Source of the DNA: Planctomycetota bacterium
Lineage (GTDB): Bacteria > Planctomycetota > Phycisphaerae > UBA1845 > UTPLA1
Length of the DNA stretch: 64,000 nucleotides
Assembly: GCA_003576905.1 (NCBI GenBank)
Contig: QEVG01000002.1
Span: forward strand, 1-64,000
Direction of reading: 5' to 3'
Shown: positions 4,485 through 13,366 of the stretch, piece after piece
How positions within the stretch are numbered: the stretch's first letter is position 1
Layout: each line of letters opens with the position of its first letter
Program-made: the position numbers and the translations under genes
Notes under the pieces: model-generated
Database searches by the model: none
The model's input: only the letters and a program-made list of their open reading frames with translations
Told to the model about the DNA's origin: nothing

Positions 4485-4987
4485 TTTCGGTTCTCCCTCA
4501 TCGCCCGGCCGGTCGCGTCTTCTCACTCGGCTCAACTCGCGAGGACGTGCGCGAATTCTTATTGAGCGACGTGAAGAGGCGTCTTGGCCGTCGTCCGAGT
4601 TACGCTGCGTGGGACGCAGTCATCGGACAGGCGGTTAGACACGCCGGAGCGGCAGGGGTTAGGGGCTGGGGTTAACCCTGGGGCGTTAATTCGCGGCGGC
4701 GGCGCGAATAATCGCCCGGCCGGGTGCAATACCCCTTCAGCCCGGTAGCTTCGGATAGCCGAGAACGGGGCCTTCGGCGGCCGGGTCTTGGCAGGCAGGC
4801 CGCGTCAGGGATCCGCTGAAATGGTAAGATCGCGATGCCCGCTCACAATAGGTTGCCCGGCCACAAGGGTTTATGGGAAGGCGGCGGCGAAGGTGCCGGG
4901 AATCCTGGGCGGCCGGCGGAAGCGGGATGGGAAAGTCAGGGCTTGGCCCGCGGGGTTCACAGGCGCCCTGTGACGAGGAGTGGTGCG
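4485..4987. other. Intergenic region between divergent genes
   Basis: About 500 bases between the Tyr-rich protein gene (minus) and the FHA gene (plus). Frames that run through it lack ribosome binding sites and are Arg- or Pro-rich, as expected of GC-rich noncoding DNA. It contains a small inverted repeat at 4689-4709 (ATTCGCG, seven-base loop, CGCGAAT). Promoters for both flanking genes must lie here, but I could not pick one with confidence. Confidence 0.5.
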
Positions 4988-6610
4988 ATGTTCGGAAGAT
5001 TGGCATCTGTCCGTCTGAAGGCTGCGGAGGAGGCCCTGGCCAAGGGGCTGCTCGACGAAGCGTTCGACATCGCATGCAGCCCGGACGTGGCGGATCATCG
5101 TACGGGGCGCACGCTGCTTGCGGAGCTTGGCGAGAAGCTTCTTCGGCGCGGGCAGGAACACCTGTTGGCGTATCGGTTCGACGCGGCGGATCGGGATTTT
5201 GAGCGGGCGGGGCGGTGCGGTGGCGCGAGCGAGAAGGTCGCGGAGTGGAAGGTGCGGGGAGCCGAAGCGCGGCGTCATTACGAGGCGCAGCGGAAGATTC
5301 AGGACGCAGCGTTGCAGGATGCACATCGGCATCTTGCGGCGGGCAGCATCGCGGGGGCGGTCGAGGCGCGGCAGCAGGCGCCGATGGAGAATACGGTGGC
5401 GGGCGCGCTTTCGGCGGCGATCCGGGGCCAGGTGGAGCGGGCGCAGGCGTCGCTTGATGCGGCGCGGGAGGCGGCCGGAGAGGGCAATCTCGCGGTGGCA
5501 GTGCGACATCTTCGCAAAGCGCGGTCGCTGCATAACAAGCTCGAGGGGCTGGCGGAAATGGAATCGCTCCTGGTTGAAAAGGCGCTTCAGGGCGCGGCGG
5601 AAGACTTTCGCGCCGGCAAACTGGTGCGTTCTCGGCAGCAGGTGGGCATGCTGGAGGACCTTGGCGGCGCGCGGCGAGAGCGGGTGGAGCTGGAGGAGGC
5701 ACTGGGTCTTGCGGAGGCGGCAGCGCAGGCGCTGGCGGACGATCATTACACGAAGGCGGGGGTGCTACTCGGGCGGCTGACCCAGACGGGGCTGGAGGCG
5801 GAATGGATTCGTGACGTGCGCGAGCGGCTGGCGGCGCTGGATCAGCATCGGCGGGCGCTATTGGAGGGGCCGCTGGGGCTGGCGGCGGGCCGGGAGGTTC
5901 CTTCGGCGGTGAAGACGATGCCGGGTGACACGCGAGAGACACTTTCAATTCGGCCGGGTCCGGCGTGGGCCGGGCCGCCGCCGATTCCGCGGGACGATGC
6001 TGCGGGCGCGGGGATCCTGCCGAAGCGGATCCTGCTGCGGATCGACGGCGTCGGCAGCTTCCTGCTGATTCGCGGAGACCGGATCGGGATCGGCCGGGCC
6101 GGCTCGCACAGCGCGGACCTGGAGCTTTTGAGCGATCTGTCGGAGCGGCACGCGGAGATCATCCGGGCGGGGGAGGATTACTTCGTCGTTTCGAAACAGG
6201 GCGTGGAGCTGGCGGGGCGGCCGGTGGACCATGCGCTGCTTCAGGACGGGGACCGGATTCGGCTGGGGAGCCGGACGAAGCTGACCTTCCGGAGGCCGAG
6301 CCAGAAAAGCGCGACGGCGATGATTGATCTTGGCGAGGGCGTTCGCGCGGCGTCGGGAGACTGCCGGCGCGTGATCCTGTGGGGCGGGCCGATCCTCATG
6401 GGCGGCACGAAGGAATGTCACATCGTGTTGAATTCGGGGGGGGGCGGATATGTGCTGACGGAGCGGATGGGGCAGCTTTTTGCGAAGCCGATGGGGCCGG
6501 CGGGCGAGTCGATCGTGCTCCCGCAGGGCGTGGTGACGGCACTGGGCGAGTTGCGGCTGAGCGTGAGCGGCTTCGCGGGCGGAAGTGGCGTGGGACGCGT
6601 GATCGGGTAG
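4988..6610 (+). CDS. FHA-domain protein with helical repeat N-terminus
   Basis: A 540-residue cytoplasmic protein with no signal peptide. Residues about 1-290 are Ala/Arg/Glu-rich helices with TPR-like periodicity (patterns such as ALAKGLLDEAFDIA and HLRKARSLHNKLEGL). A Pro-rich linker with GPPPIP (about residue 330) leads to an FHA domain at ~355-437, showing GIGR, SDLSERHAEI and the GV-x-L-x-G turn typical of phosphothreonine-binding FHA folds. A further ~85 residues end the protein and may be a second, degenerate FHA-like sandwich. The ATG at 4988 is chosen because GAGGAG lies just upstream, although the open frame extends left. The kinase gene begins 22 bases after the stop, so the protein is probably the substrate or docking partner of that kinase (inference). 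Confidence 0.85.
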   Translation: MFGRLASVRLKAAEEALAKGLLDEAFDIACSPDVADHRTGRTLLAELGEKLLRRGQEHLLAYRFDAADRDFERAGRCGGASEKVAEWKVRGAEARRHYEAQRKIQDAALQDAHRHLAAGSIAGAVEARQQAPMENTVAGALSAAIRGQVERAQASLDAAREAAGEGNLAVAVRHLRKARSLHNKLEGLAEMESLLVEKALQGAAEDFRAGKLVRSRQQVGMLEDLGGARRERVELEEALGLAEAAAQALADDHYTKAGVLLGRLTQTGLEAEWIRDVRERLAALDQHRRALLEGPLGLAAGREVPSAVKTMPGDTRETLSIRPGPAWAGPPPIPRDDAAGAGILPKRILLRIDGVGSFLLIRGDRIGIGRAGSHSADLELLSDLSERHAEIIRAGEDYFVVSKQGVELAGRPVDHALLQDGDRIRLGSRTKLTFRRPSQKSATAMIDLGEGVRAASGDCRRVILWGGPILMGGTKECHIVLNSGGGGYVLTERMGQLFAKPMGPAGESIVLPQGVVTALGELRLSVSGFAGGSGVGRVIG

Positions 6611-6632: not shown

Positions 6633-9584
6633 ATGGCTTTTTCATTCAATCAGGGCGATCGGCCGCTTCCGGGCTTCACGATCCAGCGCGGCGTGGGGCG
6701 GGGCGGCTTCGGCGAGGTGTACTACGCCGTCAGCGATGGTGGCAAAGAGGTGGCACTGAAGTACCTCCGTGAGAACCCGGACGTCGAGCTGCGCGGCGTG
6801 TCGCACTGCCTCAATCTCAAGAGTCCGTATCTTGTTGCGATCCACGACATCAAGCAGAACGACGAGAACGACTGGTTCGTGGTGATGGAGTACGTCAACG
6901 GGCCGTCGCTGCGCGACCTGATGATGGCGGAGCCGGGGGGTCTGGGGCCGCAGAAGGCGGCGTATTTTCTGCGGGAGATCGCCAAGGGGATGGCCTACCT
7001 GCACGACCGGGGGATCGTGCATCGCGATCTGAAGCCGGGCAACATTTTCTATGAAGACGGCTATGTGAAGATCGGCGACTACGGGCTGGCGAAGCTGATG
7101 TCGGCGAGCCAGCATTCGGGCCAGACGGTGAGCGTCGGCACGGTACATTACATGGCGCCGGAGGTGGGCAGCGGGAATTACGACCGGACGATCGACATCT
7201 ATGCCCTGGGCGTGATGCTTTACGAGATGCTGCTCGGGCGCGTGCCCTTCGCGGGGGCGACGATGGGCGAAGTGCTGATGAAGCACCTGACGGCGCAGCC
7301 GGAAGTGGACGAGCTGCCCGAGCCGTTTCCGAAGGTCATCCGGAAGGCACTGGCCAAGGACCCGAAGGACCGGTACCAGACGGTCCAGGAGATGATTTCC
7401 GAGCTTTTCGCCGTCCAGTCGCTGGATGAGTCGGTGGCGAGCTTCGAGGCCGACAGCCTGACGACAATCGCCGCGCGGGCCGCGAAACAGATGCACGCGC
7501 GACAGGCGGCGGGGTCGGGCGGGGTTGCCACGCTGACCGGCGTGGGCGGAAGCAGCAATACAGGGCCGCGGGACGACACCCGGCTCGTGGCGGAGGCACG
7601 GATCGGCCTTCCGCCGGGGCGGCTCTATCGCATTCAGAATCGGGTCGGTCGAGGCATGGGGAGAATCGCTGATCGCATCGACGGGACGGCGCTGGCCCAG
7701 CAGATCAACCAGGTCGGGACGACGCAGCAGGGTCACGGCCCGCGGGTGCTGATCGCGGTGCTGCTCGCGCTGGGTATCTCCTTCGGCGTGAGCCTGCTCG
7801 CTGGACGGACGACGAGCCGGGGGGTCATGGCGGTGCTGGTCTTTCTGAACATCGCCAGCATCGTTCAGGGCGTGCTCGTGGGAAGCTGGCTGAGCTACGA
7901 CCGGCTCAAGGTCGTCGGCATCTGGGTTCCGCGGCTGATCATCGCGGCGATCGGGGCGATGGGGCTTCTCATCACGGGTGAGATCGCGTCGGCGCTGACG
8001 CCGGACGTCGTGACATCCGCGTCGGCGGGAGCGGCGAAGGCCGCGGCGCGGATTCGCGCAAGCGGTGTGGCGGACTGGGCGGGCCCGCTGATCCTGTGCC
8101 TGGTTTTCGGCGACTGGGCCGGTCGGCTCTTTGAGGGCCGCAAGGGCAACATGTCGCTCGGGTCGGCATTCTCGATCGGGCTGTTCGGATTCGTGGCCGG
8201 GGCGATCCTGCTCGACGGGCAGGCGTTCAAGACGGCGGTGATCGTGGCCGGGGCGTCACTGGTGGTGCAGGCTATTGGGAGCCTATGGCCGCTACCGCCA
8301 GGCGCGGTTGTGCCCAAGACGCGCACGGATAATTCTGAGGAGAAGGAAGAAGAGACGGAGACGGAATCGGCCGAGCCGGTGGTCGTCCAGCCGCCGGGAT
8401 TCGCTTCGACACCGGCGCGGGGCGGTCGCGGCGGTCCGCCGCCGATTCCGAAGCAGGGTTCCACGAAGCCGCCTGCGGGCAGCGTCCTTGCGCCTGATGC
8501 CTCGGAGACCGATCCTCGGCTGCGCCGCAGCACGGTCGTACGCACATTCTGGCTCGTCGCCTCGGCCTTCGCGCTGTGCGTCGGGATCATTCTCTACGCG
8601 ACGCCGCACCTTGTTCAAAAGCCGATGTTCTTCGACGCGGTGTACGCGAAGGACGGGACGCCGCTTCTTCAGGAGGACATGGAGGTCGGGGCGTTCAGCA
8701 TTCTCGGCACGATCTGCATGGCGCTCTTCCTGTTCTGCTTCACGCGGTCGTGGTCGGGCTACAAGAAGGGCATCTGGCGCGGGCTGATCCGCCCGGCGAT
8801 CTTCTTCGGCGGCGCGGCGATGTCGGCTTCGTGCGGGATCGGAATGGGTATGTTCGACGCGCCTCCTGAGGCGCGCCCCTTCCTGCTGGCGGGCATACTT
8901 CTGGGCGGCATTGTGGGACTCCTCGTGTGGTGCGTGCCGGTGCCGCCCTATCGGCCCAGGCTGGACGAGACGCCGGAAGAGATTCAGAAGACGGGAATGC
9001 GCAGCGCCGGCCGGTTGATGAAGGCGGGGGGAATCGCCTTCGGTATCGGATCGGTGTTCCTGGTCCTGATCCTCTCGACAATGACGGGCGCCGACGCCGA
9101 GGAAGTGGGCCCGCCGGTCGCCATCCTGACCCTTGTCGTATCGGGGACGCTGCTGGTCAGTGGTCTTTTGCGGCAGCGGAAGTTCCGGCCGAAGCCTCCG
9201 CGCGAAGAGAAGCTGACGCTGCCGTTGCGGCACGTGTTCGAGATTGACGCCAACACGAACCTTGCGCGGCTGATCGAGCGGCACCTGGGCGTCTTCGGCT
9301 ATCGGCTCGTCACGAAGTCGGATCTGCTTTGGTCGTTTGAGCGGGGATCGTGGCCGGCGCAGTTCTGGCAGAGCGATATCCGGCAGTGGAAGGTGCGGTT
9401 CAACGTCGCGGCCTACGAACTGGATACCGGCGGCTACCGCGTTACCTGTTATATCGACCTCGACACGGGCTTCTCCGAGCCGGACCAGAAACAGCTTGGC
9501 GTGCTCTACTCGGAGATTCGCGAGCTTCAGGGCCTGCTTTCCGGGCGGGAAGTTCCGTCGGCCGCCGCGGTGCAGGTGGCGTGA
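6633..9584 (+). CDS. Multi-pass membrane Ser/Thr protein kinase
   Basis: A 983-residue PknB-type kinase. The kinase domain (about 13-265) has all key residues: Gly loop GRGGFGEVY (22-30), Lys43, HRDLKPGN with Asp132 and Asn137, Asp149-Tyr-Gly in place of DFG (Asp kept), and APE at 175-177. From about residue 369 come roughly six hydrophobic helices, then a charged Glu-rich and Pro-rich linker holding GGPPPIPK, then five or so further helices, and a soluble C-terminal domain of ~130 residues (LRHVFEIDANTNLARLIERH onward) that I do not recognise. The architecture differs from the usual single-pass PASTA kinases. It lies in an operon with the FHA gene, 22 bases upstream, and the same GPPPIP word occurs in both proteins. 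Confidence 0.92.
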   Translation: MAFSFNQGDRPLPGFTIQRGVGRGGFGEVYYAVSDGGKEVALKYLRENPDVELRGVSHCLNLKSPYLVAIHDIKQNDENDWFVVMEYVNGPSLRDLMMAEPGGLGPQKAAYFLREIAKGMAYLHDRGIVHRDLKPGNIFYEDGYVKIGDYGLAKLMSASQHSGQTVSVGTVHYMAPEVGSGNYDRTIDIYALGVMLYEMLLGRVPFAGATMGEVLMKHLTAQPEVDELPEPFPKVIRKALAKDPKDRYQTVQEMISELFAVQSLDESVASFEADSLTTIAARAAKQMHARQAAGSGGVATLTGVGGSSNTGPRDDTRLVAEARIGLPPGRLYRIQNRVGRGMGRIADRIDGTALAQQINQVGTTQQGHGPRVLIAVLLALGISFGVSLLAGRTTSRGVMAVLVFLNIASIVQGVLVGSWLSYDRLKVVGIWVPRLIIAAIGAMGLLITGEIASALTPDVVTSASAGAAKAAARIRASGVADWAGPLILCLVFGDWAGRLFEGRKGNMSLGSAFSIGLFGFVAGAILLDGQAFKTAVIVAGASLVVQAIGSLWPLPPGAVVPKTRTDNSEEKEEETETESAEPVVVQPPGFASTPARGGRGGPPPIPKQGSTKPPAGSVLAPDASETDPRLRRSTVVRTFWLVASAFALCVGIILYATPHLVQKPMFFDAVYAKDGTPLLQEDMEVGAFSILGTICMALFLFCFTRSWSGYKKGIWRGLIRPAIFFGGAAMSASCGIGMGMFDAPPEARPFLLAGILLGGIVGLLVWCVPVPPYRPRLDETPEEIQKTGMRSAGRLMKAGGIAFGIGSVFLVLILSTMTGADAEEVGPPVAILTLVVSGTLLVSGLLRQRKFRPKPPREEKLTLPLRHVFEIDANTNLARLIERHLGVFGYRLVTKSDLLWSFERGSWPAQFWQSDIRQWKVRFNVAAYELDTGGYRVTCYIDLDTGFSEPDQKQLGVLYSEIRELQGLLSGREVPSAAAVQVA

Positions 9585-9805: not shown

Positions 9806-10714
9806 TTGGTTCAGGCCGACGATGCCGACAGTTTTCTTGTGACCGCGATCCGAAAGGGCGATCAGCGGGCGTGGCATCAACTCATCGATCGCTACCAGGG
9901 TCGTCTCATGGCGTTCGCGCGGAGCCGGCTGAAGGAGGCGGGCGACGCCGAGGACGCCGTTCAGGAAACGCTTCTCGGATTCGTTACAAGCCTGAAGCAC
10001 TACGACGAATCGCGTTCGCTCGAGACGTATCTGTTTGCCATTCTTCGATACAAGATCGGCGAGATCCTGACGCGCCGGCAGCGCCGGGGGGAGTTTACGA
10101 CCGGCTTCGACATCGACGACGACACGCCGGGCACGCTGGAGCCGGAGGACCCCGAGACACCGAGCCGGGTCGCGGCGGGGCATGAGCGTGAGAAGCGCCA
10201 AGCGGACCTGCTCGCGACGATACTTCGGCGGCTGATCGAGGAGCTGCGCGACCGGGGCAAGCTGGAGGACCTTCAGGTCATCGAGGCCTTGTTTTACATG
10301 GGCATGCGGAACAAGGAGATCGCCGATCTGGTGGGACGGGATGAAAAGGCGATCGCGGGCATCAAGTTCCGGGCGCTGGGGCGGCTTCAGGAATTCCTTG
10401 CGGAAGCGGCCGGGACCGATCGGTCGGTTTTGGAGGATTCGCAGCTTTCGGCGGAGGCGACCATCTCAAAGATATGGCGGCAGCGGCGGCTGAGCTGTCT
10501 TAAGCGTGGCACCATCGGCTCCTATCTCCTTGGAGTTCTGGAGGAACCGTGGCTGTCGTACACGCGGTTTCACCTGGAGACCGTTCGCTGCCTGATGTGC
10601 CATGCCAATCTCGAAGACCTCTCCACCGAAAGCGAGGTCGCGCGCGACGAGCGGCTGGGGGAACAGATATTTCAATCCAGCGTCGGGTTTCTGTCGCGGC
10701 CCGGCAGCGCGTGA
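9806..10714 (+). CDS. ECF-like sigma factor with C-terminal zinc-finger-like (ZAS-like) extension
   Basis: A 302-residue sigma-70 family protein. Region 2 is at about 8-92 (DRYQGRLMAFARSRL, DAEDAVQETLLGF, TYLFAILRYKI) and region 4 at about 130-198 (NKEIADLVGRDEKAIAGIKFRALGRL). A C-terminal ~100-residue extension carries Cys231, His256, Cys262 and Cys265. The C-x24-H-x5-C-x2-C spacing closely resembles the Cys3His zinc site of ZAS anti-sigma factors such as RsrA. No separate anti-sigma gene is adjacent, so the tail may be a built-in regulator (inference). The start is a TTG preceded by GGAAGG; a different start is possible. It follows the FHA-kinase operon and may respond to it. Confidence 0.85.
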   Translation: MVQADDADSFLVTAIRKGDQRAWHQLIDRYQGRLMAFARSRLKEAGDAEDAVQETLLGFVTSLKHYDESRSLETYLFAILRYKIGEILTRRQRRGEFTTGFDIDDDTPGTLEPEDPETPSRVAAGHEREKRQADLLATILRRLIEELRDRGKLEDLQVIEALFYMGMRNKEIADLVGRDEKAIAGIKFRALGRLQEFLAEAAGTDRSVLEDSQLSAEATISKIWRQRRLSCLKRGTIGSYLLGVLEEPWLSYTRFHLETVRCLMCHANLEDLSTESEVARDERLGEQIFQSSVGFLSRPGSA

Positions 10715-11149
10715 TGCATTTCTTCTCGGGGGCTGCCTGCTCTCGCGGACGTGCGTCGAATTCGATCGTTCATTGGGTATGCCCGGTCCGGATTCCGTAG
10801 ATACCAGTGAGGAATGCCGCGTTTCTGCGTTCCCATAATGGTTGCCCAGCCGACGGCGAGCGATCTTTCGGCGGCTCTAGCTGGGCGAAGTCCGCCGGCA
10901 TGCCGAATACTCGATGGGGAAACTCCGCCGCCGGGCGGGTTTCGCGCGCCGCAAGCGCGGTGCTAAGATGTTATCGCCCCCGTATGCAGGGGCATCGGTA
11001 GCGCAGCCGGATGCGTTCGAGGCGGGGGCATCCGAACGGGCTCCGCCCTCGCTGGATCGTCGGGCGCGAACCAGGGCATCCATGATCGGCTAATGGGCGA
11101 ATCGTTCGGAAGTCGGGGCTTATCGAGCGCGTCGCGTGGAGGATCGACG
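10715..11149. other. Intergenic region before the secreted 738-residue protein
   Basis: About 435 bases with no credible gene: short frames here lack ribosome binding sites and family resemblance. It contains a candidate promoter at 10941-10969 for the following gene. A frame-extending ATG at 11093 is in frame with the next gene but has no ribosome binding site. Confidence 0.5.
10941..10969 (+). promoter_or_regulatory. Candidate promoter of the secreted 738-residue protein
   Basis: TAAGAT at 10964-10969 is preceded by TGC, giving an extended -10, and a weak -35 TTCGCG lies at 10941-10946 with a 17-base spacer. This would give a leader of roughly 170 bases. Sequence match only. Confidence 0.35.
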
Positions 11150-13366
11150 ATGGCGTCAGGTTGTCGGCGAAAATCGATGGCGGGCCAAACGGTCATCTGG
11201 TCCGCGCTTCTCGCGGGCCTGGGTCCGGCCGCGCCGCGGCCCGCGCTCGCCCAATTCATCGCCGCGGGTTTCGGACGAGCCGAAGCGACCGCTCCGGAAG
11301 ATGCAGACTCGGCCACGGCGGACAAGGACGCACCGGAGGAAGACCGGGAAAAGACTCCGCCAAAGGGCGAGACCAACACGGCCGCATCGAAGCCGGCCGC
11401 CACATCGAAGGAGGCGGAGGCGTCCAACACACCGCAGGTTGAGGTTTATATCCCATCGGTGGTGGGGCTCGTGGATGGTTTCGAATCGTCGCGGGCCGGG
11501 CGGCTCTGCGATGCATTCGCGGCGATGCTGCCGAAGCTGGAGCGCGAGTCGGACGAGGAGTTTGACGTCGGCGCGATCCTTGCGCTCCTGGCGAAGATCG
11601 GCTCGTGGCCCGACACGTCTGTGAGCCTTTGTACTTACACGCAGGATCAGGAAGGCCGCGCGCGCTGGGCGCTGCGGCTGGACTGGCCGGTTGATGATCT
11701 CCGCGACCGGGTGCGGGAGCTGATTGAAGACGAGCGGGCGAAATCGCTCTTCGCCGACCTGAAGCTGAGCGAGGACGATGACGGTTCGTGCCGGCTTGAA
11801 TTGCCGGACGTCGTGCTCGCCGTGTTTCGGAAGGACGGCGCCGGCTCGCTCGTGGCATCGTCCAGGGACGTCGAGCCGCCGAAGACGGTGTTTGGGCAGA
11901 AGCCGGGCGGCGCGTCGGAGAAAAAATCCGGCTCGCTGCTTTATTGCCGGCTGAACCTGGACGCCGGAGACGAGAACGAAAAAGCGCAGGGGCTGTTCGG
12001 CCAGATATCCATGATCAGCAGTATTCGCTACGCCGGCTCGGTGGACAAGGACGGGCTGTGGCGCGAGCGGTTCAACGTGCGGTGGAATCCGCTCCTCGGC
12101 CTGGGGATCAAGACGCTCCTTAAAAAGACAACCGGTACGTACGAATGCCCGGTGGACGCTTATGCGGTCGGCGCCGTTCACCTGGCCATGGGCGAGGGAT
12201 TGGCCGATTCGATCGCCGGGCTGGAGCAGGGGACGATCGGGCCGCGTGCCGACGGTGAAATGGCGTTCGCGGTCATGCCGGGCACGGGGTTTCTTCCGAT
12301 ACCTGACCTTTACTACCAGTTCAATGCCCGACGGGTCGATCGAATCCGCAAGGACATTCGCAAGGCGATGCGGAAGGACACGGGCCGCCGCCGCGACGAC
12401 GACCTGCCGCCGGCGTGGCACGAGAACGAGGTCGACGGCGAGACGATCTTCTGGCGCGATCCATCCGCGGACGGCGCCGGGGGACTGTCGATCGCGAACT
12501 TCCGCACGGTGCTTTTTTTCGACGAGGCGGAGGACGAGGGCGGCAAGCACCGGCTGATCATCGCCGAGACATCGACCGGGGCGGACGACGCGGTGCGGCG
12601 ATGGAAGGAGTTGAAGCGGCAGCCGAGGTCGGCGTGGAAGCGCTTGCCCGACACGTCGAAGTCGCACTGGCAGATTGTACTGAACTGGCGTCGGCTGTAT
12701 GCGTTTGCGCAGCCGTACCTGAGCCTTTTGGCGGCCAGCGCCGAGGGCGGGCAGTCCGCGCCGCGTGGCGAAGAGCTGGAGGACGCGCTTTTGGATTCTC
12801 TGATCAACGTTCGGATTGAGTATGCCGGTCTGGACGTGCGCCACGTCGGCCCCGCGCCGCTCGGGTTCATTTACGTGCCGACCGTGGCGGCGGCCTCGCT
12901 GTCGGCGGGGTCGGACCCGAGTTCCGAGGCGGAGCGCGAGCGGATGGCCTGCCGCAATCTGCGCGTGTTGCACCATCATGCCGGGCTGTTCAAGAAGGAC
13001 TACGGCCGGTGGCCGGCGACGGTGGCGGAACTGGACGGCTACGTGGATTTCGGGTCGCATCCGAACCTGCTCAATCTTCGGCCGAGGGACGACGGCCTGT
13101 TGGCGGGGTTCGTGTCGGTGTTTACGGGCGACAAGCGGAAAGTGGCGCTGGAGGCGCTGGATTCCGGCGAGATCGACGACACGCTTTACGAGATTGACTG
13201 GGCCGAGGATTCGTGGCGGCTGAAGTACCGCGCCGAGACCTTCGTGAACTACGCGACGATTTACATCGACCAGGATGGAAAGATACACCGAGTGCCGCGG
13301 TCTGAAGGAAAGCCTCCGAAGGACAAGGCGCCCGAGAAGAAGAAAAAGGAATTGGCGCGCCGGTGA
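11150..13366 (+). CDS. Large secreted protein of unknown function
   Basis: A 738-residue exported protein that I do not recognise. GGAGG seven bases before the ATG at 11150 fixes the start. A signal peptide ends near PRPALAQF (about residue 35), followed by a linker of ~60 residues rich in Glu, Lys, Ala and Pro. The remaining ~640 residues are globular, with many acidic patches and DDL/DDD words; a segment near 600-630 (CRNLRVLHHHAGLFKKDYGRW) looks like the helix-to-strand start of a pseudopilin-type C-terminus, which is only a visual impression. It ends in a Lys-rich tail. The SppA-type peptidase starts 88 bases downstream on the same strand, so the pair may act together in the envelope. Confidence 0.75.
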   Translation: MASGCRRKSMAGQTVIWSALLAGLGPAAPRPALAQFIAAGFGRAEATAPEDADSATADKDAPEEDREKTPPKGETNTAASKPAATSKEAEASNTPQVEVYIPSVVGLVDGFESSRAGRLCDAFAAMLPKLERESDEEFDVGAILALLAKIGSWPDTSVSLCTYTQDQEGRARWALRLDWPVDDLRDRVRELIEDERAKSLFADLKLSEDDDGSCRLELPDVVLAVFRKDGAGSLVASSRDVEPPKTVFGQKPGGASEKKSGSLLYCRLNLDAGDENEKAQGLFGQISMISSIRYAGSVDKDGLWRERFNVRWNPLLGLGIKTLLKKTTGTYECPVDAYAVGAVHLAMGEGLADSIAGLEQGTIGPRADGEMAFAVMPGTGFLPIPDLYYQFNARRVDRIRKDIRKAMRKDTGRRRDDDLPPAWHENEVDGETIFWRDPSADGAGGLSIANFRTVLFFDEAEDEGGKHRLIIAETSTGADDAVRRWKELKRQPRSAWKRLPDTSKSHWQIVLNWRRLYAFAQPYLSLLAASAEGGQSAPRGEELEDALLDSLINVRIEYAGLDVRHVGPAPLGFIYVPTVAAASLSAGSDPSSEAERERMACRNLRVLHHHAGLFKKDYGRWPATVAELDGYVDFGSHPNLLNLRPRDDGLLAGFVSVFTGDKRKVALEALDSGEIDDTLYEIDWAEDSWRLKYRAETFVNYATIYIDQDGKIHRVPRSEGKPPKDKAPEKKKKELARR

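Follow-up and report, generated by a model that had tools for sequence, protein, structure and literature searches.

The gene at positions 9806–10714 (+) of the window, the whole 64 000-nucleotide stretch of contig QEVG01000002.1 analysed here, encodes an ECF sigma factor that carries, as a C-terminal extension, a Cys/His module distantly related to the zf-HC2 anti-sigma domains. We consider it rather probable that this module is a class I-like anti-sigma domain stabilised by zinc, acting in cis here and in trans where it is split off, under the control of an FHA–kinase pair. The original prediction, made from the window alone, had proposed a zinc anti-sigma-like module within the sigma factor. 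Sequence comparison now supports such a module through a profile match to zf-HC2, through the invariance of its putative ligands, and through the relatives in which it is encoded as a separate gene beside the same sigma factor.

The sigma factor and its C-terminal module

The sigma gene begins with TTG and encodes 302 amino acids, and has full-length orthologues in the same order (49–79% identity). Region 2 (9881–10087; residues 26–94) is a confident Pfam match (PF04542, Sigma70_r2, 1.5e-13), and its region 2.2 contains the motif DAED (D47 A48 E49 D50); of 78 orthologous sigma factors, 75 have an acidic residue at position 49 and at position 50. Region 4 (10274–10387; residues ∼157–194) falls below the Pfam cut-off when taken by itself (PF08281, E 0.068), and is covered by TIGR02937 (sigma70-ECF), which spans residues 22–198 at 4e-22. 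Regions 2 and 4 had both been called normal; Pfam bears this out for region 2, while for region 4 it holds only by way of the longer TIGR02937 match. Two features of CorE-like sigma factors (former ECF44/ECF238), a CXC in the linker between sigma2 and sigma4 and a cysteine-rich domain, are absent from the window protein, whose last 98 residues include only three Cys. The protein stops 37 residues past C265, and reading the sequence after the module reveals no transmembrane helix, there being no hydrophobic stretch long enough.

The module core (10496–10600) is C231-x24-H256-x5-C262-x2-C265, with the four residues precisely where they had been predicted. Conservation of these residues in homologues sharing the extension had been chosen beforehand as a check, and in every homologue examined all four were invariant. 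Invariance was seen in 27 orthologues within the order, in 26 modules sampled phylum-wide and in 48 that are more divergent; over all distinct modules the count is 103 of 103, down to ∼21% identity. Almost as constant are R234, A267, N268 and D271. Leading into the core is a pre-helix, ISKIWRQRRLS (10463–10495; W224, R228), which is kept in fused and separate forms; W224, just ahead of the module, is common to nearly all of them. After the core comes a tail running from ANLEDL to FQSSVGFLSR (10601–10711), in which S292, G294, F295 and L296 are invariant in the alignment of the order. The tail keeps an S/T pair, in the pattern S/T-S/T-x-x-aromatic-L, and is a candidate fourth helix or phosphosite. 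When the 98 residues of the extension were shuffled at random, the motif appeared in 9 of 200 000 shuffles. AlphaFold gave the extension a pLDDT of ∼26 within the full protein, with two sequences only as input, and of 53 when it was modelled alone, both too low to define a fold.

Relation to zf-HC2 and to known sigma factor fusions

The spacing had been described as near-identical to that of RsrA. The order Cys-x24/25-His does agree, but the gap from His to the next Cys is x5 rather than x3 and is fixed throughout the family, so the module is not the H-x3-C form of RsrA. The canonical C-x25-H-x3-C-x2-C occurs in none of the 103 members; 99 have C-x24-H-x5-C-x2-C and 4 have C-x25-H-x5-C-x2-C.

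A profile match of the extension was the other check set in advance, and its outcome was divided: the single window sequence failed against zf-HC2, while family members and the family profile gave matches. Pfam and NCBIfam scans of the window tail as a single sequence returned no useful match and none to zf-HC2; a LIM match at 0.1 was taken as noise. Against PF13490 the best E values within the module family are 1.4e-4 and 0.0016, and no member alone passes the Pfam cut-off. In hhalign, aligning the family profile with one built from 26 zf-HC2 modules of sister genomes gave P 4.6e-7 over 32 columns. When the ligand columns were held fixed and the rest shuffled, none of 200 shuffles equalled the profile score (z 5.7), and a reversed profile failed to match zf-HC2; the likeness therefore goes beyond the Cys/His spacing. 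A search of PDB sequences with the module profile gave nothing significant. Judged by these comparisons, the module family is related to zf-HC2 yet lies outside the curated family, as an H-x5-C subtype of its own.

With the ZAS proteins of the RsrA/ChrR type (class I ASD, PF13490) the module shares its order of Cys-x24/25-His and C-x2-C, a presumed helical layout, a place directly downstream of the sigma factor and a significant profile–profile match; it differs in having H-x5-C in every member where theirs is H-x3-C, in scoring below the Pfam cut-off, and in belonging, either fused or as a partner, to a distinct sigma factor that is linked to a kinase. Zinc-finger anti-sigma-like domains fused to the C-terminus of an ECF sigma factor are known from ECF48, ECF52 and ECF53 of Actinobacteria, for example SCO4117 (PMC8999054, PMC5826349). 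Those proteins have transmembrane helices, to which ECF52 adds parts that bind carbohydrate, and SCO4117 is recognised as pfam13490, whereas the window extension has ∼100 residues, ends with the module, comes from Planctomycetota, has FHA and kinase genes as neighbours, and belongs to a family that has been fused and split repeatedly. While fused zinc-finger anti-sigma domains as such are already known in this membrane-bound form, the soluble, kinase-linked and repeatedly fused or split H-x5-C form appears to be new: our literature search did not find it, although the tables of the main ECF classification may mention it. Hx3Cx2C has served as the criterion for scoring zinc-binding anti-sigma domains (PMC7406223), and by it the H-x5-C module would not be counted.

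Fused and separate forms among Planctomycetota

Other planctomycete families encode the module on its own, as a protein of ∼120–150 residues. Its gene lies directly downstream of the orthologous ECF sigma gene at loci L060 (genome G063), L058 (G095) and L053 (G110). The partner at L060 (1408–1842, −) has a canonical C9-x27-H37-x3-C41-x2-C44 module first and the H-x5-C module after it. Families f38 and f79 also have two modules, of which the first no longer has its ligands but still matches zf-HC2 by profile (2.1e-7), and the second keeps all four. Sigma and separate module genes of f79 are ∼1.1 kb apart at L038, and gaps of similar size occur in five other genomes of this family; the gap at L038 holds a 235-aa ORF (586–1293, +) that we take, from reading its sequence only, to be an AIM24-family protein.

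A survey of 392 Planctomycetota genomes found an orthologue of the sigma factor in 84 and the module in 84; 83 genomes have both, and each occurs once without the other (Fisher p 2e-83, a value that ignores the relatedness of the genomes). The thresholds (E ≤ 1e-18 for the sigma factor and E ≤ 1e-6 for the module) were set after the gap in scores had been seen, and in seven genomes checked individually the orthologous sigma factor scored far above every paralogue. When the 30 genomes carrying a fused form are set aside, 53 still have both. By arrangement, the 84 module matches divide into 30 that are fused, 20 in an adjacent gene, 6 with a single intervening gene, and 28 that lie on a different contig or are otherwise unlinked. 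On a tree of 80 sigma domains, branches with good support, such as those inside family f39, make the fused label change at least four times. Since fusion or splitting has happened repeatedly, and since the two are almost never found apart, sigma factor and module very likely act on each other. Relatives in which the module is a gene of its own, partnering this sigma factor, point to a common off-switch within a protein-kinase pathway. The recurrent change between fused and separate arrangements also offers a natural experiment in inhibition in cis versus in trans.

The two exceptional genomes are G425, with the sigma factor (L232) and no module, and G374, with a module (L133) and no sigma factor; G374 is 80% complete and has its module on a 4-kb contig. 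One genome, G367, has both a fused sigma–module protein and a separate module gene, with module sites at C1:1728647–1728784 (L144) and C1:2232790–2232930 (L131), as well as a second orthologous sigma factor at 6298416–6299000.

Gene neighbourhood, candidate mechanism and alternatives

Upstream of the window sigma gene are an FHA-domain protein of 591 aa (4835–6610, +; FHA 4e-6) and, immediately next to the sigma gene, a Ser/Thr protein kinase of 983 aa (6633–9584, +; Pkinase 1.5e-50), so that the FHA–kinase pair formerly noted in the cluster is indeed there. The order FHA–kinase–sigma is conserved in the family. Among 55 genomes of the same order, 36 carry a window-type kinase upstream of the sigma gene, at most 8 kb away and on the same strand; in the other 19 none is beside it, in part through contig breaks and in part through real separations. 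None of the 55 lacks the module, save where a contig end cuts the sigma match. Kinases are again upstream in distant families (L116, L118, L120 and L121), and at L118 an FHA gene too. Just downstream of the window sigma gene is a 757-aa protein without a Pfam match (11093–13366, +). A sigma gene followed by its anti-sigma gene on the same strand is the usual layout, and 9 of the 10 zf-HC2 matches in this genome conform to it, each coming right after a same-strand ECF sigma gene. No anti-sigma gene lies beside the window sigma gene, as had been stated, the sole zf-HC2 match on the contig being ∼99 kb off and below the cut-off.

The window sigma factor resembles the kinase-linked ECF43 (EcfP/PknT) and the planctomycete groups ECF59, 61, 62 and 217 in having its gene beside that of a Ser/Thr kinase, in Planctomycetota. 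Sigma factors of ECF43 are without DAED and are inactive until phosphorylated in region 2.2 (PMC8999054). Unlike these, the window sigma factor has DAED together with a dedicated zinc module; with the acidic motif retained it should be able to bind RNA polymerase and would require an inhibitor to hold it silent, a brake for which the zf-HC2-like module is the candidate.

The mechanism we favour would run as follows. The extension would be an H-x5-C, zf-HC2-like anti-sigma domain, presumably stabilised by zinc. At rest it would fold against regions 2 and 4 of the sigma factor and so might keep that factor off RNA polymerase, and in relatives the same module would work in trans, as an anti-sigma protein dedicated to this sigma factor. 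Class I anti-sigma domains contact sigma4 with helix 1 and sigma2 with helix 4 (PMC7406223); the module has room for a three-helix core, and its FQSSVGFL tail could be helix 4. The upstream FHA protein and Ser/Thr kinase would relieve the hold, most simply by phosphorylation of the module or of its S/T-S/T-x-x-aromatic-L tail. There is precedent in SigH and SigE of Mycobacterium tuberculosis, where PknB phosphorylates the ZAS anti-sigma factor and the sigma factor is freed (PMC8999054). Release by phosphorylation is nevertheless the weakest step, and we put it somewhat below an even chance. Given the kinase context, phosphorylation is no less likely than redox to be the input; redox control of the module, as originally proposed, is no more than possible.

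Several observations bear on whether the module inhibits. In the 28 cases given above its gene is not linked to that of the sigma factor, an uncommon arrangement among anti-sigma factors. A partner of a sigma factor may, moreover, activate and not only inhibit: the activity of CorE requires its cysteine-rich tail (PMC8999054). The module could accordingly be an on-board metal or redox sensor of the CorE/CorE2 kind, the sigma factor working only when metal-loaded (or reduced). CorE/CorE2 (ECF238) likewise have a metal-ligand C-terminal extension of their own, and such metal-sensing extensions on sigma factors are established (PMC8999054); a further precedent is OrbS, for which an on-board iron sensor is reported (PMC9023288). 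An invariant Cys/His cluster would also suit a sensor, but an exceptionless four-ligand site fits structural zinc at least equally well. The domain of CorE/CorE2 is cysteine-rich, with unrelated spacing, and acts positively and in dependence on metal, whereas the present motif is zf-HC2-like and the linker is without CXC. The separate form, in which a further zf-HC2-like module comes first, moreover has the anatomy of an anti-sigma factor, and we regard a sensor as unlikely.

Another way to account for the conserved gene order and the conserved S/T pair of the tail is that the module docks the sigma factor to the FHA protein or the kinase, with phosphorylation falling on the sigma factor itself, as in the ECF43 type, and with zinc purely structural. 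Region 2.2 is acidic in 75 of 78 orthologues, however, so the EcfP mechanism does not apply, and the module persists where the kinase is missing beside the sigma gene (19 of 55 genomes, partly owing to contig breaks); docking seems to us improbable. That the tail is an ordinary extension, its Cys/His spacing due to chance or left over from a decayed relic, would agree with the single window sequence having no profile match. A chance spacing is ruled out by conservation, with ligands invariant in 103 of 103 modules, and the near-perfect co-occurrence with the sigma factor, even when the module is separate, likewise opposes this explanation, which retains hardly any probability.

Returning to the anti-sigma domain under FHA–kinase control, kinase-linked ECF groups other than ECF43 keep an acidic region 2.2 and may differ from EcfP, according to a 2022 review that describes their mechanism as open and notes that an anti-sigma gene does not as a rule accompany them (PMC8999054). 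A dedicated zinc module, whether fused, adjacent or unlinked, is a concrete and testable candidate for the missing regulator. It is tempting, though tentative, to see one system in the FHA protein, the Ser/Thr kinase, the sigma factor that keeps DAED and an overlooked H-x5-C module through which the kinase would free the sigma factor. As part of that view, and with similar reserve, the module may have moved freely in evolution between being a domain of the sigma factor and being a separate, even unlinked, protein. Release by the kinase via the module would, if true, answer how kinase-linked ECF sigma factors outside ECF43 are turned on. Tandem copies of the kinase, two to four in number, occur in four genomes (G012, G016, G027 and G058), upstream of the sigma gene or elsewhere.
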